From NCBI RefSeq assembly GCF_013032445.1, contig NZ_WQCA01000003.1:310001-374000 (forward strand): a DNA stretch of 64,000 nucleotides, given 5' to 3'. Shown piece by piece: positions 24,082 through 64,000 of this stretch (its first letter is position 1; each line of letters starts with the position of its first letter). The position numbers and the translations under genes were made by a program. The notes under the pieces are model-generated. The model saw only the letters and a program-made list of their open reading frames with translations. It ran no database searches and was not told the DNA's origin. The DNA is from Ruegeria arenilitoris. Its GTDB lineage: Bacteria > Pseudomonadota > Alphaproteobacteria > Rhodobacterales > Rhodobacteraceae.

Positions 24082-24155
24082 TGGAGCGGGTAGCGGGAAT
24101 CGAACCCGCGCGTTCAGCTTGGGAAGCTGACAGGCTACCATTACATCATACCCGC
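24082..24155 (-). tRNA. tRNA-Gly(CCC)
   Basis: On the minus strand the sequence folds into a full cloverleaf. The acceptor stem is GCGGGTA/TACCCGC with discriminator T and an encoded CCA; the anticodon stem-loop is TCAGC-TTCCCAA-GCTGA with anticodon CCC; the T-arm contains GGTTCGATTCC. It is 74 bases including CCA. Confidence 0.95.
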
Positions 24156-54974: not shown

Positions 54975-55381
54975 TTTTGAGAACTCCCAATTCTTTTTGT
55001 GGATGGGAAACCGCCCGGCGGCCCCACCCAGGGACCCTGCCGGTACGCCAAGCGCGCCCGTCATGCAACAGGCTCAAGCGTCTGAAATTCCAAAATCTCC
55101 CAACATCTTCGACGTTTCATTCAGACACTCAACTTGTCAACCCCCGGTCCGGGCTACAGCGCCCCAAGTCGCAAATCTGAGGGTTATTTTCAAAGTTTCC
55201 CCCTGAATCTCGAAGAGATCACCGGGAAATCCGCATTGTGTTGAAGGCCGGCGGACGGGTGACGCAACAATTCTTTTGAATGTTTGCACGTGGGCCATTA
55301 GTCTTGACCAAATTTTCACAACCACTGGTAACCGTCGGTCTACAAAGGGATTTGCGCCGACATCATCTAAAAGGACCCGTG

Positions 55382-56875
55382 ATGAAGCGCCCGTCGCCCA
55401 GCCCGTTGCTTGTCATCGCCCTTGCGATAAGCGCAGCGATTGCGGCCTGGGGTATTGCCGACCCGCAGGGGTTGGGACGACTTGCATCAGAAGCCGTGGC
55501 AACACAGTTCAGCAGCCGCGGCTGGTTCATCATGTTAGAGGTCAGCGGCCTGCTTTTTGTGGCGCTGTACCTTGCCTTGTCACGCTTTGGCGACATCCGC
55601 CTTGGCCCGAATGACGCTGAGCCCGAATTCTCTACGCCCAGTTGGATTGCCATGCTGTTCGCCGCCGGGATGGGTGTCGGTTTGCTGTTCTATGGCGTGG
55701 CCGAACCTCTGACCCATTTCGAAGTTCTGCGCCAGTTTAACCCCGACGCTGAGGCTGCCAGCTACGGCCTGTTCGTTACCTATCTGAACTGGGGCTTCCA
55801 CGCCTGGGCGATCTACGCAATCGTCGGGCTGGTCATCGCCTATTTCGCCTATCGCCGACACCGCACCTTGCTGCTGAGCGCCCCGCTGACCGAGGCGCTG
55901 GGCGAAGCGCGCTGGATCAAGGCCATGGGGTGGATGTTCGATCTGCTGTCTATCGTTGCTATTGCCGTGGGTCTGGCGGGATCGATGGCGATGGGCGTGT
56001 TTCAGATACAGACCGGACTGGCGGGTCTGATCGGGGTTGAAACGCCCGGAGTTCTGACGATGCCTGTGTTTGCTGCACTCTGCATTGCGTTCATCATCCC
56101 CCTGCGGCGGGACCTTGGTGAAGGGATGTCCCTTTTGTCCAATGCCGCCATGCTGATAGCCGTCGGGATGATGGTTTACCTCCTGATCCTCGGCCCAACC
56201 TCGTTTCTGATGAATGACATTGTCTCGGGTTTCGGGCGGTATCTGTTTGGCGTTCTGCCCGCCGGGTTTTCCACGGCAGAGTTTTTTGACGACATCCTCA
56301 TCGACTGGTTTCACGGTTGGACACTGAATTACATGATCTGGTGGCTGGCCTGGTCTCCCTTTGTGGGCATCTTCATCGCACGCATCTCGCGCGGGCGTAC
56401 CATCCGAGAGTTCCTGATCGGTGTCATCGTCGCCCCAACCCTGTTCTCGATCCTGTGGTTCGGTATCTTTGGTGGGTTGGGTTTCTTCGATGCGCTGCGG
56501 CAGGAAGGTGCCCTGTCCGCCGTCAATGCCGAGAATCTTGACGCAACAACCTTCGCCCTGCTTGCCAAGTTCCCACTTGGTGGTCTGACACAAACTGCAA
56601 CAATTCTGGCTGCGTTTCTGTTTGTCGTAACCAGCGTCGTCAGCGCCGGGTTCACCCTGGCAATGATTGGAACGGGCGGCGACGACAATCCGTCCCCCAA
56701 GGTTCGAACGGTCTGGGGGGTGATTCTGGGCGCGTTGGGCTTAGCCATGATACTGGTGGGAGATATTTCATTGGTCAGGTCGATCATCGCACTGTCGGCC
56801 ATGGCCTTCGTGTTCATCGTACCGGTCCTCGTGATCTGCCTGTTCAAAAGCCTTGCGCGAGAGGACAGAACATGA
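55382..56875 (+). CDS. BCCT-family transporter
   Basis: A 497-residue secondary transporter with about twelve helices. Family motifs include WIAMLFAAGMGVGLLFYGVA, AEPLTHFEV, LNWGFHAWAIYAIVGL, NYMIWWLAWSPFVGIFIARI and SRGRTIREFLIGV. BCCT proteins import betaine, choline, carnitine or DMSP; marine members often take up DMSP or betaine. The start MKRPSPSPLLV at 55382 matches family length. The stop overlaps the start of a 30-residue membrane peptide. Confidence 0.92.
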   Translation: MKRPSPSPLLVIALAISAAIAAWGIADPQGLGRLASEAVATQFSSRGWFIMLEVSGLLFVALYLALSRFGDIRLGPNDAEPEFSTPSWIAMLFAAGMGVGLLFYGVAEPLTHFEVLRQFNPDAEAASYGLFVTYLNWGFHAWAIYAIVGLVIAYFAYRRHRTLLLSAPLTEALGEARWIKAMGWMFDLLSIVAIAVGLAGSMAMGVFQIQTGLAGLIGVETPGVLTMPVFAALCIAFIIPLRRDLGEGMSLLSNAAMLIAVGMMVYLLILGPTSFLMNDIVSGFGRYLFGVLPAGFSTAEFFDDILIDWFHGWTLNYMIWWLAWSPFVGIFIARISRGRTIREFLIGVIVAPTLFSILWFGIFGGLGFFDALRQEGALSAVNAENLDATTFALLAKFPLGGLTQTATILAAFLFVVTSVVSAGFTLAMIGTGGDDNPSPKVRTVWGVILGALGLAMILVGDISLVRSIIALSAMAFVFIVPVLVICLFKSLAREDRT

Positions 56876-56964
56876 GTGGCGACTTCATCGACACCCTGCT
56901 GAACCTCAGCGTTTTTGCCTATATCGGGTTTCTGATCTGGCTGAGCCTTCGACGCAATCGGTAA
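56872..56964 (+). CDS. 30-residue membrane peptide coupled to BCCT transporter
   Basis: An ATGA overlap links this short frame to the BCCT gene. The product begins MSGDFIDTLLNLSVFAYIGF, continues as one hydrophobic helix and ends LSLRRNR, giving an acidic N-terminus and a basic C-terminus as in many single-pass small proteins. The coupling and protein-like pattern suggest an accessory subunit. It is too short for standard gene finders. Confidence 0.55.
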   Translation: MSGDFIDTLLNLSVFAYIGFLIWLSLRRNR

Positions 56965-56995
56965 ACATACCGCGTCTGAACGTCATTTTTGGAGG

Positions 56996-57052
56996 TGGTG
57001 CCCAAGGAGAGACTCGAACTCTCACGATGTTGCCATCGGGGGATTTTGAATC
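56996..57052 (-). tRNA. 3' fragment of tRNA-Leu(CAA), probable attachment-site remnant
   Basis: On the minus strand the fragment reads from the anticodon loop TTCAAAA to an encoded CCA. It has the anticodon 3' stem TCCCC, a long variable arm (CGATG-GCAA-CATCG), a perfect T-arm (GAGAG-TTCGAGT-CTCTC) and the 3' acceptor strand. The 5' half (acceptor strand, D-arm and 5' anticodon stem) is missing; the sequence at 57053 onward does not pair. Integrative elements that use the 3' half of a tRNA gene leave exactly this remnant at their distal end. Confidence 0.85.
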
Positions 57053-57243
57053 TCTTTCTCTCGGTCGGGGTTAATTTTAGAGCTCGGGAAATATCTAGCG
57101 TTTCCAGTTTCTTACGCCTTAAACCCTAAGCCCAATCAACACCTTTTTCTGTCACCTTGCCACCTATTGTTACCTAGGGCGTCACTAAAGGAATTTTTAT
57201 CCCCTTCGCCATGTAACTCATTGACAAAACTTGAGGAAACCAA

Positions 57244-57342
57244 ATGGTCACTTCGCAAACCACCGAAGATGGTTCGAGTATCACCCTTACTGTAACAGAA
57301 TCCGGGTGGTCAACCCGTACATGTAAGGGTGAGTCAGATTGA
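57244..57342 (+). CDS. Possible small protein (32 aa)
   Basis: An ATG preceded by TTGAGGAAACCA, a good ribosome-binding site, opens a 32-codon frame starting MVTSQTTEDGSSITLTVTES. It is on the strand opposite to the other island genes and its TGA overlaps the TTG of a following frame. I recognise no family. The 57053-57243 stretch upstream shows no gene. Confidence 0.35.
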   Translation: MVTSQTTEDGSSITLTVTESGWSTRTCKGESD

Positions 57343-57497
57343 CTCAGCTTGAGGAATGGCAAGTTGAACTGGAAGAAGCGTCGAACTACCGAGGCTACAA
57401 CCGAACAGTGGACTTGAGTTTCCCTTTGGCCACTGTAGGTTTTGGGAGGGTTTGTGGAAGGACCCTCCTTGGTATCGAGCATCGAACAACTGAATAG
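57339..57497 (+). CDS. Possible small protein (52 aa)
   Basis: A frame starting at a TTG that overlaps the previous stop (TTGA) encodes 52 residues beginning LTQLEEWQVELEEASNYRGY with protein-like composition. It may be translationally coupled to the frame before it. Together they could be the remains of a longer phage gene. Confidence 0.3.
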   Translation: MTQLEEWQVELEEASNYRGYNRTVDLSFPLATVGFGRVCGRTLLGIEHRTTE

Positions 57498-57557
57498 AGC
57501 CCCATACCAAATGAACGAGCAGACATGTGAATTTGCGCAGGAGCTCACTCAATCGGG

Positions 57558-58487
57558 TCAGCCTGGACTCGGTGTGTCGAGTACCTGATGGCGATTAATA
57601 TATGCTTGATATTTAGCAGTCAGTTTAGGCATTGGTGCTATGCGTTGAGCTCGTTGAGCACACGCCATGTAAGTTTTGTTTGAAATAGACTCTCGGAGCC
57701 AATTTGGGTTCTTGGCCTTTTCAGGAGTAAAGAGTCTCATAGCTTCCAAAACCTCCGGCGAAGTCATAATCTCTTTTTGGTATGCTTCGTTGAACTTATC
57801 GAGAGCTTCCCTCATCTGTTCCGCGTATTCGGGTTCTTGATCAATGAAGTAAACGGACTGAGAAAAGTCCTCTTTTGGTTGTCTTACATGACTTCCATCC
57901 CAGTAAGCTGCGGTTGAAAATTGAACGGAAAAAAGTTCAGAACCCTGTCCGGGGTCAAGCCTAACCGCACTATGATCATCTTCTAGGTCGATCACCTCAT
58001 CTCGGTGGTAGAGGTTGAGGATGTACAAAGCAGCCATTCCAGCCAACAGATGACGCAAACTGGCAAAATGGAACGCTTCCTCTCGATTGTGTTTGAGATT
58101 TTGGTACGCGTTGTTCCATGAGAACGTTTTTGTTTGCTTTCCGGTTCTAATCGTATCCTTGACAAAAGGGAGGTAAAGTTTCTCGCTGCAAAAACAGTTG
58201 GGATGGGACAGAATTGCGACCTTCTTATCTAGTTTCCAATCTCTAACAAATCGCTTGATCGCTACATCATCAAATTTTGAATTGGCCGCCACGTGCTCAT
58301 CGAAGTCCCTGCGGTATATAGACTTTGATATTGCCTCTATTTCAGCCCCAATGCGAATGATCAAATCGGCAATTTCGGACGAATATACGTCCAATTGATC
58401 ATCACACACGTGGATGCTGTGGGTTAAGTTGTCTACACTTTGTTCAAGCCTTCGGTAGATAGGCCAGTATTGATTGACAGATGGCAT
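57558..58487 (-). CDS. HEPN-like hypothetical protein (309 aa)
   Basis: A 309-residue soluble protein; MPSVNQYWPIYRRLEQ at 58487 is chosen over a longer frame to 58589 because that extension looks unlike protein. The middle contains EIADLIIRIGAEIEAISKSIY and, later, HNREEAFHFASLRHLLAGMA followed by ALYILNLYHRDE. This recalls the helical arrangement of a family of HEPN-type proteins seen in defence contexts, with a charged H-N-R-E-E/H cluster. The assignment is by pattern memory only. Cysteines occur in a cluster FCSEK. It is the last gene before the broken tRNA. Confidence 0.55.
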   Translation of the reverse strand: MPSVNQYWPIYRRLEQSVDNLTHSIHVCDDQLDVYSSEIADLIIRIGAEIEAISKSIYRRDFDEHVAANSKFDDVAIKRFVRDWKLDKKVAILSHPNCFCSEKLYLPFVKDTIRTGKQTKTFSWNNAYQNLKHNREEAFHFASLRHLLAGMAALYILNLYHRDEVIDLEDDHSAVRLDPGQGSELFSVQFSTAAYWDGSHVRQPKEDFSQSVYFIDQEPEYAEQMREALDKFNEAYQKEIMTSPEVLEAMRLFTPEKAKNPNWLRESISNKTYMACAQRAQRIAPMPKLTAKYQAYINRHQVLDTPSPG

Positions 58488-58593
58488 GATTGTTTTTGTC
58501 TCTTCAAGATGAGTCAGCAGTATTGGACAAACTCCGCAAACCAAAAAGCAAAACCTGCTTTTGTTCGCAAGGTTGAACCTACCGATCAATTTG

Positions 58594-59070
58594 TCACCCC
58601 AGGTTACTCAAGGTATCCTCGTACAACTCCAAGTCCTCCCCCGGCACACTCGCCAAAAACTCTAAGACCCCACTCTCTAAACCATCCTCAAACGCTTGGC
58701 CCAATCGCCGCTTCTCCGCGTCCGTCTTAGAGCAAGGGTAAACCAGCCCGACAATGTTCTGATACATGTGCCGCGCCCTAATCTTCTCGTCGCGGTAGAA
58801 GAACCGCATGTAGCCATCAATGACGTTGCACAACATGCCGGATCGTTTGTTGGACTCTCGGTTCTGAGGCCACCTGTTCAGTTCCTTGTTGGCTTGGCCG
58901 AAAAGTTCAGGGCCAAGGATCGACAAAGCGTCATCTGGCAGTGCATCCAGAGAAGCCCTTAGAGACTCGCTGAGAGGGGTTAGGCGTTGAGTGATAGGTG
59001 GGGAGTCTGGTGTGGCTTTGGGTGGCTCTGATTCCGCTGAGGTGCACTCAGGCGTCAATTCAGTTTTCAT
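58594..59070 (-). CDS. Hypothetical protein (158 aa)
   Basis: A 158-residue protein with a Pro/Ser/Thr-rich disordered N-terminus (about 1-35) and a helical C-terminal domain (LGPELFGQANKELNRWPQNR, NVIDGYMRFFYRDEKIRARH). No signal or membrane segment. I do not recognise it. It lies between the HEPN-like gene and the hydrolase fusion on the same strand and may belong to the same module. Confidence 0.6.
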   Translation of the reverse strand: MKTELTPECTSAESEPPKATPDSPPITQRLTPLSESLRASLDALPDDALSILGPELFGQANKELNRWPQNRESNKRSGMLCNVIDGYMRFFYRDEKIRARHMYQNIVGLVYPCSKTDAEKRRLGQAFEDGLESGVLEFLASVPGEDLELYEDTLSNLG

Positions 59071-59201
59071 TTTTTACCTAATTATTATTTTGGTATCAAT
59101 CAGATGCAGCCGTGTAGACTGCAACCTAACTTGTTGAAAAATGTTGATCGCGCTCTGGCACAGAAGCAGAAACGAAGTATTACTCTTCACAATTAGTAGT
59201 T

Positions 59202-60629
59202 TTACAACGCCCCAAGTCTGTCGCAGATTGCCCCTGGCTTCATAATTTCCTGCCAATGATCTAATAGTTCGGTGCGCTGCGGATCTGGCAAACCTGAGAA
59301 GCTTAGAGAATAGATTTCATCGTGCCTTGCTTGAAACGCTTTGAGGTTAATCGGACAAGGATCAAATTTTTTCAGTTCCGCTATAGATAGCTGTTCAAAA
59401 CGAATTCCGATTGCATTGTACCAATCGGAATGGCTGAAATCCACGTTCTTAAGGTTCGCGTCGTAAAAGGTGGCATAGCGGAGTCTTGCTTTAGAAAAAT
59501 CTACAGAAGCCAATTCTGCATCATCAAAGTACGCACCTACTAAAAACGAATCTTCAAAGCTTATACTTCTGATGGTCAAATTAGAAAAATCCATGAATGG
59601 CAAGTCGAGACCTGAAAGAGAATGTTCACTGAAGTATTCTCTCAGCACTCCTGACGAATGGGCTTTCAGTACCTTAAGCACTTCTCGGTTGAGTAGACGC
59701 ATGTCGTGGTAGTCAAAGCTACTCTTACCTCCAATTCGCAGAAATTGATCAGCTAGCCAGTAGTTTAACTTTTCCTTTTCTGGTTTTTCCTGAACCAACA
59801 TCAGTGAATCCAACTCTTCCAGTCGCGCTTTCGCAGCCAAGTACTCACCGTTCCCAATCTCACTTGAGATTTTCTTCTGAAGCCTTTGTGCATCTCCATC
59901 GAAGTTAACTTGTTCCAAGGCAAGAAACCCCAAGGCTACGAAAGACAAGGCGATCAAGTACCGAATTGGAAACTGAAGGAGCTGAAACTTCACAGATACC
60001 GAAACTTCCTTGGCATCTGCAGGACCTGGTAAGATCACGTCGTCTTGTAAAAAACTGACCCAGAATCTTTCGACGAAGTCTGACTCAAAGAACTCACTGT
60101 GACCTATTCGATGGAAACGATCCGACACCTGCGCCGATCCAACGCCGAATGTTCCGGACGCGCCGTATCCCCATGTCATCGACTGAGCCATTACAGGCCA
60201 CACGTCAAGTGTCCCGCATTCGTTAACGATGCCCTTGCGTGTTTCTGTGGCATCTATTTGCTGAGATATCCTTGGCCAGTCGAAGCTTTTTGGTACAACA
60301 GCTCCACAGAGAATTAAGCGGGATAGTCTGATATCTGGATTCTCAAGTAGTACTCGCGTGATTGCATACGTCCCGAAGCTATGTGCTATCAAAATAAGTG
60401 GCCGATCAGGATAGTCTGCAATTACCGATCTAATCTGCTTTTCTAAGTAACGCACGGGTTGGCCACGCAACCATGAAAGCGGAAGAAGAAACCTAATTAG
60501 GTCGAAATAACCATACTTTAATGGAATTACTGAGCATTCAAATTTCTCCGAAAATATCGAGGCAATTCTAGACTGCCAACGCGCTGCTGTGCGTATCCCA
60601 TGAACCAACACAACAACGGGGTTTTCCAC
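59202..60629 (-). CDS. Serine hydrolase - transmembrane - pentapeptide-repeat fusion
   Basis: A 475-residue protein starting at GTG 60629 with GGGAGG upstream. Residues 1-200 form an alpha/beta-hydrolase: VVVLVHGIRTAARW (oxyanion region), LIAHSFGTY (Ser about 84), with Asp about 142 (GTLDVWP) and His about 177 (GHSEFF) as likely partners. Residues about 222-240 are one membrane helix (PIRYLIALSFVALGFLALEQ). A helical stretch follows (about 245-330), then pentapeptide repeats at about 338-402 (LSGLDLPFMDFSNLTI, AELASVDFSKARLRYATFYD). The order suggests an anchored lipase or esterase with a protein-binding repeat. Function unknown; a defence effector is possible. Confidence 0.8.
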   Translation of the reverse strand: MENPVVVLVHGIRTAARWQSRIASIFSEKFECSVIPLKYGYFDLIRFLLPLSWLRGQPVRYLEKQIRSVIADYPDRPLILIAHSFGTYAITRVLLENPDIRLSRLILCGAVVPKSFDWPRISQQIDATETRKGIVNECGTLDVWPVMAQSMTWGYGASGTFGVGSAQVSDRFHRIGHSEFFESDFVERFWVSFLQDDVILPGPADAKEVSVSVKFQLLQFPIRYLIALSFVALGFLALEQVNFDGDAQRLQKKISSEIGNGEYLAAKARLEELDSLMLVQEKPEKEKLNYWLADQFLRIGGKSSFDYHDMRLLNREVLKVLKAHSSGVLREYFSEHSLSGLDLPFMDFSNLTIRSISFEDSFLVGAYFDDAELASVDFSKARLRYATFYDANLKNVDFSHSDWYNAIGIRFEQLSIAELKKFDPCPINLKAFQARHDEIYSLSFSGLPDPQRTELLDHWQEIMKPGAICDRLGAL

Positions 60630-60774
60630 TAACTACCTCCCTCCCGGCGACCAAAGTAAGGTTATTTCGGTAAATTCAGTTTGCCAACTGTCGCTTTCAT
60701 GGTTGCTCAGTTCACTCCAAACTGGACCCAAGTCCCTCCCCCAAAAAGGACCAAAGCTTTACCGGCATCGCTTC

Positions 60775-61020
60775 TTAACAATTTACGTCCACCGGATAGT
60801 CCAACTGCTCTTCCGGAATCTGGTGATGATAGGAAGTCGCCGGAACCCTAGGGTCAATAGGTTGGACCTTATGTTCCTTCATCAGTTTAGCCGCCGTTGA
60901 AAGGTCGGTACCGGTGGCGGTACCTTCCTTGATTTTTGCAATCAGTTCCCGAACGAGTAACCCGTTGAGTTCTTCGAGTTCACCTTGGGTGGCGTTCTTG
61001 ATGCTGTCCTCAGCCATCAT
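60775..61020 (-). CDS. Small-terminase-like protein (podovirus DNA maturase A type)
   Basis: An 81-residue helical protein whose core LNGLLVRELIAKIKEGTATGTDLSTAAKLMKEH has the pattern of T7-like and marine podovirus small terminase proteins (LLA..L..KI..G.AT..DL..A...L). It starts within the stop region of the upstream gene (ATGATGGCTGA). No large terminase is in the window. The match is by pattern and needs a profile search. Confidence 0.45.
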   Translation of the reverse strand: MMAEDSIKNATQGELEELNGLLVRELIAKIKEGTATGTDLSTAAKLMKEHKVQPIDPRVPATSYHHQIPEEQLDYPVDVNC

Positions 61021-61777
61021 AGGGTTCCCACAGGCTATCAAATGCTTCGACAGCTTGATCTCGGGTCAATTGCCCCGTCGCTGCTTTGAACCAGATGTTC
61101 CGAACAGTGGCTTGTTGGTCGAGTGTTCCGGTCTCTGCAAGATCGACAAGGAAATCGATCCGCTCCATTTCCAGACCATCGCCGTTCTCAAGAAACTGCT
61201 GCATCACTTGACCGCCAACGTCTTGCATCTCGGAGTACGTCTCTTGGAAACGCTGAGGCGTCATGCCCATTTCTGAGTTCAGAAAGGAAAGCCCTCTTTC
61301 ACTGAGTTCCCCATTCATAACGATATCATTGCCCAAAACATCCAGCACTTTTCCGCTATCTTCACCAAATGCCAGCTTAAGTTGGTCATCTAGCAAGATT
61401 GCCTCTGCGGGTCGGTCATCCACAGGCTCGGCCTCGGGTGTTTGCTCAGCGCCAGCACGGAAATCCTCTTGAGGTGAAGAGAATTCGGAGCCCTGAATCA
61501 GCCCTAGCGATTGAGCCATCTCATATGTGACTTCCATATTGCCGATCATAAGGATGTCATTCGGTTGATAGTCGCCTCCGGCATGAACTCGCGATCCATT
61601 GCGGGACACAATGTCAGGGTTGTTGTTGGCGACATTGTCAGGGATGTAGGTTGAAGCCTCATTAAAGTAGCCCTTGGCCCGGTTCTCAGCAGTCACATCC
61701 CGAACCGAAGTTCTCAGGTCATCCGAGTTCATCAGGTTAGATGTAGGTGCTACTTCGTTGTCAGTATTGAGTGTCAT
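61010..61777 (-). CDS. Hypothetical phage-like protein (255 aa)
   Basis: A 255-residue acidic protein with low-complexity N-terminal half, PEAEPVDDRPAEAIL in the middle and a helical C-terminus (LNSEMGMTPQRFQETYSEMQ, ERIDFLVDLAETGTLDQQAT, AATGQLTRDQAVEAFDSLW). The composition and place beside a small-terminase-like gene recall phage scaffolding or head-assembly proteins, but no family is recognised. Start and stop both touch neighbouring genes. Confidence 0.6.
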   Translation of the reverse strand: MTLNTDNEVAPTSNLMNSDDLRTSVRDVTAENRAKGYFNEASTYIPDNVANNNPDIVSRNGSRVHAGGDYQPNDILMIGNMEVTYEMAQSLGLIQGSEFSSPQEDFRAGAEQTPEAEPVDDRPAEAILLDDQLKLAFGEDSGKVLDVLGNDIVMNGELSERGLSFLNSEMGMTPQRFQETYSEMQDVGGQVMQQFLENGDGLEMERIDFLVDLAETGTLDQQATVRNIWFKAATGQLTRDQAVEAFDSLWEPYDG

Positions 61778-62670
61778 TAAGTATTTCTTTCGTTTGTAGA
61801 ATTGTCTTTTGGTAGGCCAAGGGCCTCGTAAGCCTTCTCAAGAAGGCGGGTGTCGGACTGCCATGCTATGCCCATCGCATGATCGACAGCGGCATGGAGT
61901 TCCTGTCCAATGGCACGGACAATGGGTCCTGCCTTGAATGGATTGAGCGTGACCTTGGTGGTCACCCGTTCTGTGATAGGTCGGGGTCTGTTTTGGACAG
62001 GATCATCCGAGACATACCAAGGTTTCTCCCAACGGATGATTTTCTCTTCCGTCTTGCTCTTGGTGAAACCTGAATTGGCCAGCACGAATTTCCCTGCCCA
62101 TGTATTTACAAAGTGGTTCCGCGCTTTGACTGCCCCGCCTTTACCGTTTGGCATCTGCCAGAGGAACTCTGACCAGAGACGACAAGCCATGTACCTGACC
62201 ATCGCATCTGACAGGGAGTTCTTTTCCCGGTGGACGTAGTTGGAAAGTATCACCCAGGCTTTGGCCTTTTGAGTGTATCCCATGTCGCCCTCTAACCGAA
62301 AGAACGGCAGAGCAAATGCAGGGTTGTGTGTGATGATGCGCTGGGCTGAACCCCAAGAGGATTTGAAGGATCGCTTGGCAAAGTCGGTGGTGAGATGGTC
62401 GTCTTGCAGCCAAGCCTTGATTGCGCCTTCGATGGATCGGAGTTCACCTTGGGTCGGCAATCGTCCTGTTGGGTGACCATACCTTCGGTTTCGCTGATAG
62501 TGTCCCCGGCAATAGCAAGACACCATTAGTCGCTTGTGGTCACAGCCAGGTACCGCGCAGGTCTTGGCTTGGTTCTTCAACTGATAGGCTATTCGTCGTT
62601 GCCTAAGCGCTTCGCGTGAAGCCTTGCTCCGCTTCCCTGCCGGGATGGTAGACAGGGGTAGCTTAGCCAC
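61777..62670 (-). CDS. Zinc-finger-like phage-type protein (297 aa)
   Basis: Start chosen at GTG 62670, which overlaps the stop of the upstream gene by eight bases (GTGGCTAA). The N-terminal part has CAVPGCDHKRLMVSCYCRGH followed by YQRNRRYGHPTGR. This is the C-x4-C...C-x-C-x2-H then Y-x-R-x4-G pattern found in phage zinc-binding and HNH-associated proteins. The rest (about 60-297) is basic and helical without a clear catalytic motif. A DNA-binding or replication role is possible. Confidence 0.6.
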   Translation of the reverse strand: MAKLPLSTIPAGKRSKASREALRQRRIAYQLKNQAKTCAVPGCDHKRLMVSCYCRGHYQRNRRYGHPTGRLPTQGELRSIEGAIKAWLQDDHLTTDFAKRSFKSSWGSAQRIITHNPAFALPFFRLEGDMGYTQKAKAWVILSNYVHREKNSLSDAMVRYMACRLWSEFLWQMPNGKGGAVKARNHFVNTWAGKFVLANSGFTKSKTEEKIIRWEKPWYVSDDPVQNRPRPITERVTTKVTLNPFKAGPIVRAIGQELHAAVDHAMGIAWQSDTRLLEKAYEALGLPKDNSTNERNT

Positions 62671-62956
62671 CCTCAGGCTCTTTCTTGAGAAATAACGAGT
62701 TGAGCAACAGTTTCCCATTGTCCAATCTCACGGCGCTTTCGGTCACCACAGAGACACCTACGCTCTCAAGAGCCTTTCGACCCTCGCTGCCCTCTGGGTA
62801 AACAAAGGCTTTCATACCGACGCGCCAAAAGGACTTCGACAATTTGAGGTCATTGCGAACTTGAAGTGGATGATAGGGACCGGCTTTGGCCAGAGAGAAG
62901 TAGTCGACCAAGACAGGGATGATTGACGAGAAGTTTGAAACGTATTCCATTACCAT
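62663..62956 (-). CDS. Hypothetical protein (97-100 aa)
   Basis: A short protein with a hydrophobic N-terminal third (YVSNFSSIIPVLVDYFSLAK) and a mixed C-terminal part ending LLLNSLFLKKEPEGG. The start may be ATG 62956 or TTG 62965, the latter overlapping the upstream stop (TTGA). No family recognised. It overlaps the next gene at the GTGGCTAA junction. Confidence 0.5.
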   Translation of the reverse strand: MVMEYVSNFSSIIPVLVDYFSLAKAGPYHPLQVRNDLKLSKSFWRVGMKAFVYPEGSEGRKALESVGVSVVTESAVRLDNGKLLLNSLFLKKEPEGG

Positions 62957-62961
62957 TCCGA

Positions 62962-63144
62962 TCAACCCTTCTGGGCCTTAGCGGTAGTGATCTTGGCTGA
63001 TAGGACGCTCTCATCAATGTTGCCCGAGAGATAGAGATCACGAGCTAGGTTCAAATCATTTAAGGTCTCAGGCTTGAGTTCATTCCCTCCGTTCGACAGT
63101 ATTTCGTTGACCTGTTGGACAACATGGTCAGTTGATTTTGTCAT
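62962..63144 (-). CDS. Hypothetical protein (60 aa)
   Basis: A 60-residue charged helical protein starting MTKSTDHVVQQVNEILSNGG, from ATG 63144 (a GTG at 63171 is possible). No family recognised. It overlaps the following gene and lies in the leftward run of small island genes. Confidence 0.5.
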   Translation of the reverse strand: MTKSTDHVVQQVNEILSNGGNELKPETLNDLNLARDLYLSGNIDESVLSAKITTAKAQKG

Positions 63145-63326
63145 AAAAATATTTCCAATTAGTTTGTACACTTAATTGGGCTCCACCTTGTAAGGATGGT
63201 CCATTTAAGTGATTGTATTTAATTATGTATTTTGAGTTTTGAGGCCCGAACCGAGCCTCAACTTTGAGCAACTAAAGGTGCTATCGGGTAACCTTGAGTT
63301 TTGTCACGCTTCGAAACAGCGCCATT

Positions 63327-63743
63327 TCAACCGTGGGTGGAGAGGTGTTTGTACCAATTTGGAGGCTCGACACCTAAAAAGGTATTTGTCGACTCTACCT
63401 CCGCACTCAACTGCTCTAGGGCGTGTCTGGCGTACTTTGGTAGGTTGAGAATGGCGCGAGCAACTGGTTCGTCTCTTTCGAGATTCAGCATCGTTTGCCA
63501 TTCGCGGATCGCTGCATTGGCAGACGTACAAAAGTGCCGAGTGTTCCACTCAGGACCAGCCGCCTTGTTTATCCGCCTTTGTAGGAGGTACTGGATACTT
63601 TCACCACAGACAGCGACCCTATGCTTCCCCTCTGTGTGAAGCACGTACGCATAGTTCGGGTGTGTTTCTCGGGTTTCAACGTTTTGTAACGTTGGCGCAA
63701 AGGAAACCTGTTCAGGTTCCATAGGTTTAATTCTTTTTGTCAT
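63327..63743 (-). CDS. Hypothetical protein (138 aa)
   Basis: A basic protein from ATG 63743 (MTKRIKPMEPEQVSFAP). A TTG at 63809 that overlaps the upstream stop could add 22 residues. It contains YAYVLHTEGKHRVAVCGESI and QRRINKAAGPEWNTRHFCTS. No motif is recognised; it might be a regulator or DNA-binding protein near the integrase. Confidence 0.5.
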   Translation of the reverse strand: MTKRIKPMEPEQVSFAPTLQNVETRETHPNYAYVLHTEGKHRVAVCGESIQYLLQRRINKAAGPEWNTRHFCTSANAAIREWQTMLNLERDEPVARAILNLPKYARHALEQLSAEVESTNTFLGVEPPNWYKHLSTHG

Positions 63744-63805
63744 ATGTCGTTTGATTTCAGAAATGGTATGACCCGCTAACTGGCGGGGAATGAGAGCCTT
63801 ACGGA

Positions 63806-64000
63806 TCAAAGGAATGATAGGTCAGAAGAGAGCGGCTCAGAGCGCAGGTGGAGGTAGGTATAGGTGTCAGTCGCCTCCATACTCAGGAAACGGGACAACT
63901 GGCTTCCACCTGCGGCCTCAGCGGCTCCTTGGTAGAAGCTTGTGTAGTTGGTGGGGTGCTTTTGGTAACTTCGTGAATACTGGTAGATACCTAGAGTTAA
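63806..64000 (-). CDS. C-terminal end of a possible tyrosine recombinase (partial)
   Basis: A frame open from the right edge to TGA 63806 encodes 64 residues. The end, AAGGSQLSRFLSMEATDTYT followed by YLHLRSE, recalls the tyrosine-recombinase C-terminus (L-x-x-x-L-G-H-x-S-x-x-T-x-x-Y-x-H-L) with a tyrosine at the expected place, though the G-H pair is replaced. An integrase here would fit the broken tRNA-Leu at the other end of the island. Only about 64 residues are visible. Confidence 0.35.
   Translation of the reverse strand, partial: LTLGIYQYSRSYQKHPTNYTSFYQGAAEAAGGSQLSRFLSMEATDTYTYLHLRSEPLSSDLSFL

Follow-up and report, generated by a model that had tools for sequence, protein, structure and literature searches.

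A 15.4-kb element inserted at tRNA-Leu(CAA) in Ruegeria, very probably one of a sparse family of tRNA-borne elements, is a putative satellite of T7-like phages

What leaves a chromosome with only the 3' half of a tRNA gene? On the minus strand of the window, the whole 64,000-nucleotide stretch analysed here (C23:310001-374000 of our 5.24-Mb genome G000, in 82 contigs), positions 56996-57052 read as tRNA-Leu(CAA) from the anticodon loop (TTCAAAATC, anticodon CAA) to CCA. ARAGORN called no complete tRNA at 56996-57052, the sole tRNA of the window being tRNA-Gly at 24082, and an Rfam scan of 56500-64000 returned nothing at E<=0.1. Both the minus-strand reading and the ARAGORN result bear out the broken tRNA of the initial annotation. 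That annotation explained the fragment as the junction left by an element that had integrated into the 3' half of the tRNA gene and supplied its own copy, and it predicted, beyond position 64000, an intact tRNA-Leu(CAA), a direct repeat of about 57 bp and, with an integrase at the far end, an element of 8-10 kb. The features at the junction are as follows.

55280..56875, plus strand: host chromosome, left flank; a gene that we take, from its sequence, to be a BCCT-type transporter, matched near tRNA-Leu(CAA) at 6 of the 29 loci from relatives, of which 5 have no insertion
56991..57052, minus strand: displaced 3' half of tRNA-Leu(CAA), distal attachment site, 62-bp direct repeat; identical copy at C23:382404-382465
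57053..64000, no strand: left 6.9 kb of the element, delimited by repeats and GC; the remainder is C23:374001-382403

At 62 bp (56991-57052, extending five bases past the CCA), the repeated block is longer than the 57 bp foreseen, and the predicted second copy was found at 100% identity as the last bases of contig C23, giving a direct repeat of the 3' part of the tRNA at both ends of the element. Identity over 62 bp within a 5.24-Mb genome is not chance. The first 55 bases of contig C11 (C11:1-55) match 55 bp of the same repeat, and merging C23 and C11 at this overlap yields an intact 86-base tRNA-Leu(CAA). Because the intact tRNA spans the contig break, we infer that the two contigs join there, which completes the tRNA foreseen past the end of the window. 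With one copy of the repeat counted, the element measures 15,413 bp, so that the predicted size was too small. Its GC content is 0.475 vs 0.579 in window positions 1-56990, as expected from the AT-richer DNA described to the right of the fragment. An integrase does lie at the far end: a tyrosine integrase (L009:14582-15709, minus strand, where L009 position + 56499 = window position; Pfam Phage_integrase E 1e-11) is found just downstream of the intact tRNA, with 195 bp between the listed open reading frame and the repeat.

Further support for an insertion comes from the genus. tRNA-Leu(CAA) was matched in all 54 genus genomes searched (own included), and we compared the loci of 29 of the 53 same-genus relatives together with our own (30 loci; the stretches of G014 and G028 were added later). 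ARAGORN finds tRNA-Leu(CAA) in all 30, and in all 30 (29 relatives plus our own) it is adjoined by a gene that, judging from its sequence, is presumably DedA-like, a constancy that favours the inferred join of C23 and C11. On the other side of the tRNA, five of the 29 relatives have the BCCT-type gene, 123 to ~340 bp away, with no insertion; this is the empty site, and it identifies the DNA to the left of our fragment as chromosome, as had been proposed. A sixth relative, G044, has an insertion and a tRNA fragment between tRNA-Leu(CAA) and the BCCT-type gene, and in the remaining 23 loci the compared stretch (up to 1.5 kb) does not contain this gene. Repeats, intact tRNA, integrase and empty site thus agree with the proposed integration into the tRNA 3' half with replacement of the lost part. 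Positions 56991-57052 are almost certainly the chromosome's original tRNA-Leu(CAA) 3' half, displaced by integration of the 15.4-kb element. The element would have recombined into tRNA-Leu(CAA), its own 3' half rebuilding the tRNA at the integrase end, and the same integrase would presumably act in excision.

Within the window the element carries the following genes.

57558..58589, minus strand: 343-aa protein with no assigned function; no Pfam match, PHROG 19461 (unknown function) E 2e-4
58594..59070, minus strand: p158; tblastn 37-76%, also in R. arenilitoris HKCCD9148, R. profundi, G099 and G319
59202..60629, minus strand: cargo, pentapeptide repeats and an alpha/beta-hydrolase-like part, by Pfam; hydrolase matches below cut-offs
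60775..61017, minus strand: p88, probable small-terminase (DNA maturase A) homologue; hhalign 97%, TerS HMM E 5e-10, PF11123 E 7e-5, below cut-off
61010..61777, minus strand: p255, core gene, candidate scaffold-like protein; relatives compared
61777..62718, minus strand: p313, core gene with a Cys/His cluster; PHROG 5351 (HNH endonuclease) over 35 aa, E 5e-4
62663..62965, minus strand: p100, core gene, from locus comparison
62962..63171, minus strand: p69, small ORF overlapping the start of p100, from the ORF list
63327..63809, minus strand: p160, small gene; R. profundi has a match of 37% across 84 aa

Relatives of the integrase are rare, being found in 5 of 54 genus genomes at E<=1e-40 and, at E<=1e-60, in 4 of the 394 that represent the family, which we take to be Rhodobacteraceae; p313 has relatives (E<=1e-5) in 3 of the 54 and 5 of the 394 (own included throughout). 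A scan of genome contigs gave four p313 loci with named hosts: Ruegeria arenilitoris HKCCD9148, R. profundi ZGT108, Actibacterium pelagium JN33 and Wenxinia marina DSM 24838. The related integrases are 62-83% identical and lie at tRNA-Leu(CAG), Leu(GAG), Thr, Val or Tyr genes. Both ends could be located in six elements, which span 7.9-15.5 kb, and the five relatives among them have tRNA-derived far-end repeats of 44-107 bp:

R. arenilitoris HKCCD9148: tRNA-Thr(TGT), 44-bp repeat, 15.5 kb
R. profundi: tRNA-Leu(GAG), 58-bp repeat, 8.4 kb
G038: tRNA-Val(TAC), 69-bp repeat (98.6%), 8.2 kb
A. pelagium: tRNA-Tyr(GTA), 107-bp repeat (99%), 7.9 kb
W. marina: tRNA-Leu(CAG), 89-bp repeat at both ends, 11.3-kb contig

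In W. marina the 89-bp repeat also closes contig C38 and opens contig C39, which fits an integrated element. A further copy, in G099, stands at tRNA-Tyr and is apparently divided between contigs C24 and C55; G022 has an interrupted integrase at tRNA-Val, with no far tRNA repeat within 19.9 kb. A tree built from nine integrases (one a fragment) joins those of the two tRNA-Tyr sites with each other and likewise those of the two tRNA-Val sites, each pair at 100/100, and places the integrases of the Leu(CAA), Leu(GAG) and Thr sites in one group with moderate internal support; target sites have therefore switched between close relatives. On these comparisons the element very probably belongs to a sparse family of tRNA-borne elements, which the initial annotation does not mention, nor does it mention the terminase-like gene described below.

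The integrase of our own copy is unusual at its start. Across the initial 45 codons of the conserved reading, its frame (L009:14582-15844) offers no ATG, GTG or TTG, and the first listed start is a TTG further on; an ATG opens the integrases of R. profundi and A. pelagium. Our integrase may be disabled, or may start in an unusual way. Judging from its orientation, it would be transcribed toward the tRNA, possibly by read-through from the tRNA.

The order p100-p313-p255-p88 is found in five of nine loci (G000, R. arenilitoris HKCCD9148, R. profundi, W. marina and A. pelagium), with identities to our copy of 42-82% for p313, 37-66% for p255 and 41-88% for p88. G099 has p313, p88 and p158, with p255 and p100 not found in the locus comparison, and G319, whose stretch bears no integrase, has p255, p88, p158 and, where the contig ends, a partial p313. 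The same nine-locus comparison found none of the four genes beside the integrase relatives of G038 and G022. The order thus spans five species and three genera at 37-88% identity from p313 to p88 while the cargo varies, and its retention despite differing cargo suggests selection on the operon. A phage-type helicase is present in the elements of R. profundi, R. arenilitoris HKCCD9148, G038 and W. marina (L077:4546-5898, L076:10638-12020, L078:5072-6451 and L045:6882-8402, the last of these in W. marina). The R. profundi helicase matches PHROG 2467 (unknown function) at E 2e-42, and the helicase matches 55 phage records, including 23 Bacillus and 15 Acinetobacter phages, at 26-28% among the 20 matches listed. 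This helicase family is common to SPbeta-like and other phages. Our element lacks the helicase, and no replication gene of its own (primase or helicase) was recognised. Taken with the integrase, which has no ordinary start at its usual beginning, this copy may be partly disabled.

Relatives of the remaining genes were sought outside these genomes. No plasmid or phage DNA is related to the first half of the element (L009:520-8300), and tblastn with p313 found no relative in either. Searches with p313 or p255 gave nothing related in phage records, and p313, p255 and integrase patterns gave nothing related in viral contigs.

p88 is the gene that links the family to phages. In tblastn at E up to 10 it matched six phage records, none significantly: the widest match was to the gene annotated as small terminase in Rhizobium phage RHph_I20 (E 8; 44% over 63 aa by BLASTP), and the best E (0.1) belonged to Xanthomonas phage SB4, at the gene directly upstream of its large terminase. 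Both phages are Autographiviridae (T7-like phages). PHROG 891 (terminase small subunit) matches five of six p88 members at E up to 1 (best 0.002), and PHROG 1683 (unknown), which looks unrelated, also matches three and does about as well (E 0.002). Pfam PF11123 (DNA_Packaging_2) matches at E 7e-5 with 23.2 bits, under its curated cut-off of 27.5, and the unrelated-looking T4 rIIA.1-like family PF24210 matches about as well (E 4e-4). Profile comparisons were clearer. When a profile of six p88 sequences was compared with 1524 stop-to-stop ORFs from five phages (all of CRP-118; parts of RHph_I20, SB4, CRP-804 and CRP-403), it ranked their five small-terminase genes first at E 3.7e-12 to 2.1e-5, the next ORF being at 1.1; four of the five are annotated as small terminase and that of SB4 is the gene just upstream of the large terminase. 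As the phages were chosen by searches with p88 or RHph_I20, their choice is not independent of p88; the ranking within them is. By hhalign, p88 aligned with 16 phage small terminases at 97.0% with a score of 59.6, compared with 26.1 for the best of 200 column shuffles and 12.7-14.2 for the profiles of p313, p255 and the helicase. In the reverse direction, a profile of the 16, which were hand-picked from records (118 at E<=0.1, 56 at E<=0.01), ranked p88 of the five core-bearing elements first among 886 ORFs of six elements (E 4.8e-10 to 1.7e-5; next 1.9), the W. marina row being the larger part of a split p88. We conclude from these profiles that p88 is in all likelihood homologous to the Autographiviridae small terminase. 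The W. marina p88 (L045:10370-10593) is split by a frameshift, and for this reason was excluded from the p88 alignment. A PDB sequence search with the p88 profile returned one chain, an alpha solenoid protein, at E 0.02.

p255 was considered as a possible scaffold-like protein. AlphaFold gave poor models (mean pLDDT 66.4 for p255 and 56.5 for p313), and Foldseek with p255 found no match at E<=0.001 in viral and PDB libraries. Against nine T7-like scaffolds hhalign scored 26.9 (6.8% probability), and one of 150 shuffles reached 27.1; against two scaffolds it gave 0.5%. The scaffold of CRP-118 ranked first for p255 among the 1524 ORFs, yet at E 2.7, and a scaffold HMM run on the 886 element ORFs returned p255 of R. 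profundi as its sole row, yet at E 4.1. One of eight scaffold relatives was kept out of the scaffold alignment because its gene is annotated in pieces. p255 may be scaffold-like.

What kind of element carries a T7-type small-terminase homologue? The element is small (15.4 kb), integrated, and has no large terminase, capsid or tail genes of its own by Pfam, PHROG and BLASTP; in the available part of a review (PMC11389934), terminase genes are taken to suggest mobilization by phages. Roseobacter phages CRP-118, CRP-403 and CRP-804 are Autographiviridae with DNA maturase A, and their hosts are recorded as Paracoccaceae; for these reasons a T7-like roseophage is our natural guess for the helper. 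Infection by such a phage would trigger excision and replication, the latter driven in some members by their own helicase, a step that would not apply to our copy. p88 would then recruit the large terminase of the helper, so that satellite DNA would be packaged into helper virions; we propose this route because of the homology of p88 and the absence of other phage morphogenesis genes. On balance we favour the view that the element is a phage satellite of a T7-like helper or the descendant of one, perhaps partly disabled. We regard as evenly poised the fuller proposal of an undescribed Rhodobacteraceae satellite family that parasitizes Autographiviridae with its own small terminase, perhaps a scaffold-like p255, and interchangeable anti-phage cargo (with a PD-T7-4 match in one member). 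Our genome itself has no clear T7-like large terminase, with a weak match alone at E 4e-4 and 19 bits, and the Pfam and NCBIfam scans found no AlpA-like regulator.

The cargo fits both the satellite that we favour and an ordinary tRNA-borne defence island. Our element encodes an ATPase that is OLD/GajA-like and matches TOPRIM weakly (GajA, at E 5e-19, is among the 134 PADLOC families that it matches) and a KAP NTPase (PADLOC PifA E 4e-51). R. arenilitoris HKCCD9148 has a 1066-aa protein with SIR2-like, NB-ARC and TPR matches (best PADLOC E 4e-8), R. profundi an Mrr-type restriction enzyme (mREase_IV E 2e-79), W. marina an N6 methylase and a type I specificity subunit, and G099 a CARF protein (E 2e-28) and an ORC-CDC6-like ATPase. 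In A. pelagium a PD-T7-4 match (L046:16895-17698, E 1e-78) shares the element with the T7-like small-terminase homologue, and G038 has a resolvase and a 355-aa protein without a defence match. Among the proteins chosen for the PADLOC scan, which covered selected cargo only (one protein of G038; the cargo of G022 and G319 was left out), a defence-family match was found in six of seven elements. The cargo appears mostly anti-phage-like, with a putative defence role, and would shield the host cell from other phages. An island of this kind could spread by general transduction, natural transformation or vesicles, its small-terminase homologue having been captured with no role in packaging. Transfer and packaging are presumed rather than evident from the sequence, and two relatives have the integrase without the operon, both of which suit such an island; the p100-p313-p255-p88 order, kept across five species and three genera with differing cargo, speaks against it, and we consider it rather unlikely.

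Two other origins were considered. A T7-like prophage that had decayed to an integrase and a terminase gene would explain why BLASTP of 273 phage ORFs (>=100 aa; from stretches of CRP-118, RHph_I20, CRP-804 and CRP-403) against the 886 element ORFs gave as its best row, of five at E<=0.01, our MarR-like regulator with the ORF of the annotated MarR-family regulator of CRP-118 (E 2e-6, 21%), a phage annotated with an integrase as well; the other four rows are short and weak (E 0.002-0.007). The same comparison at E<=0.01 found no T7-like large terminase, RNA polymerase, DNA polymerase, capsid or tail match in any of the six elements, and it seems unlikely that independent decays would all retain one operon, which makes this origin highly improbable. 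We give just as little credence to an integrative mobilizable element hitching on conjugation: size and tRNA integration are compatible with it, but Pfam and NCBIfam scans of ten ORFs of at least 130 aa revealed no relaxase or mobilization protein.

Among known systems, the satellite that we favour is functionally closest to PICIs and PICMIs. Many PICIs encode a small terminase that redirects packaging, and tycheposons use tRNA sites. Like PICIs, the present elements have an integrase, small size and few structural genes; they differ in an Autographiviridae-type small terminase, Rhodobacteraceae hosts and tRNA target sites, and are known here from their genes. Tycheposons and VEIMEs, marine integrated elements proposed as satellites, can be likened to them by description only, from the available parts of PMC10803314 and PMC11389934. 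As portrayed in the available part of PMC10803314, PICMIs are also small, marine, defence-carrying satellites of virulent phages that lack capsid-remodelling genes, none of which were recognised here; the described PICMI115, 6.1 kb long and with int, alpA and a primase among its genes, has repeats of 17 bp at fis. The present elements differ in size (7.9-15.5 kb), in their tRNA sites and, in bearers of the core operon, in the small-terminase homologue. We claim membership in neither PICIs nor PICMIs, the PICMI features of that source (fis site, 6 kb, alpA, primase) being absent here. We regard the element as a putative satellite that represents a new family; on the evidence so far it would work like a satellite. 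Replication genes of their own are usual in phage satellites rather than strictly defining; because none was recognised in our copy, it is called putative and is not filed as a member. Charybdis elements are smaller, at 4.6 kb, with an archaeal putative host (from the available part of PMC12324425). The CRP phages, which carry p88 relatives and are possible helpers by host group, are themselves 41-kb phages, CRP-118 being annotated with a large terminase (DNA maturase B), capsid and RNA polymerase.

To our knowledge, the known satellite families (PICI, P4, PLE, PICMI) exploit helpers other than T7-like phages. This helper range also draws on the available part of the introduction of PMC10803314. 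Among the titles and opening lines of abstracts on satellites of Ruegeria, roseobacters or Rhodobacter and on satellites with T7-like phages or Autographiviridae, in a library with few subscription papers, we found no description of these elements. If the satellite reading is true, satellites adapted to T7-like phages, in a bacterial group common in the sea, would extend the range of helpers, and the elements would be a possible route for the spread of defence genes among marine bacteria. The system is testable, with isolated Ruegeria hosts, sequenced Autographiviridae roseophages and a single candidate hijack gene.

tRNA-Leu(CAA) seems to be a hot spot that serves other islands as well. A second, partial copy of its 3' half (E<=1e-10) is present in G000 and in four further genomes, G002, G024, G028 and G044, so the site seems to have been used repeatedly. 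The second fragment lies at 29 kb in G002:C20, 45 kb in G024:C19, 2.6 kb in G028:C11 and 0.7 kb in G044:C11. In G028 the DedA-side match is the 5' part only, ARAGORN placing the complete tRNA-Leu(CAA) at L048:3673-3756 instead. R. profundi ZGT108 has, beside tRNA-Leu(CAA), two integrase pieces that are 89-90% identical to our integrase and are a decayed earlier insertion. Within this remnant (L080:4254-4761), a 107-aa piece is 97% identical to the strain's own Leu(GAG) integrase and 90% to ours, and the N-terminal 63-aa piece is 89% identical to our Leu(CAA) integrase and 75% to its own Leu(GAG) integrase; the remnant looks like a mosaic.
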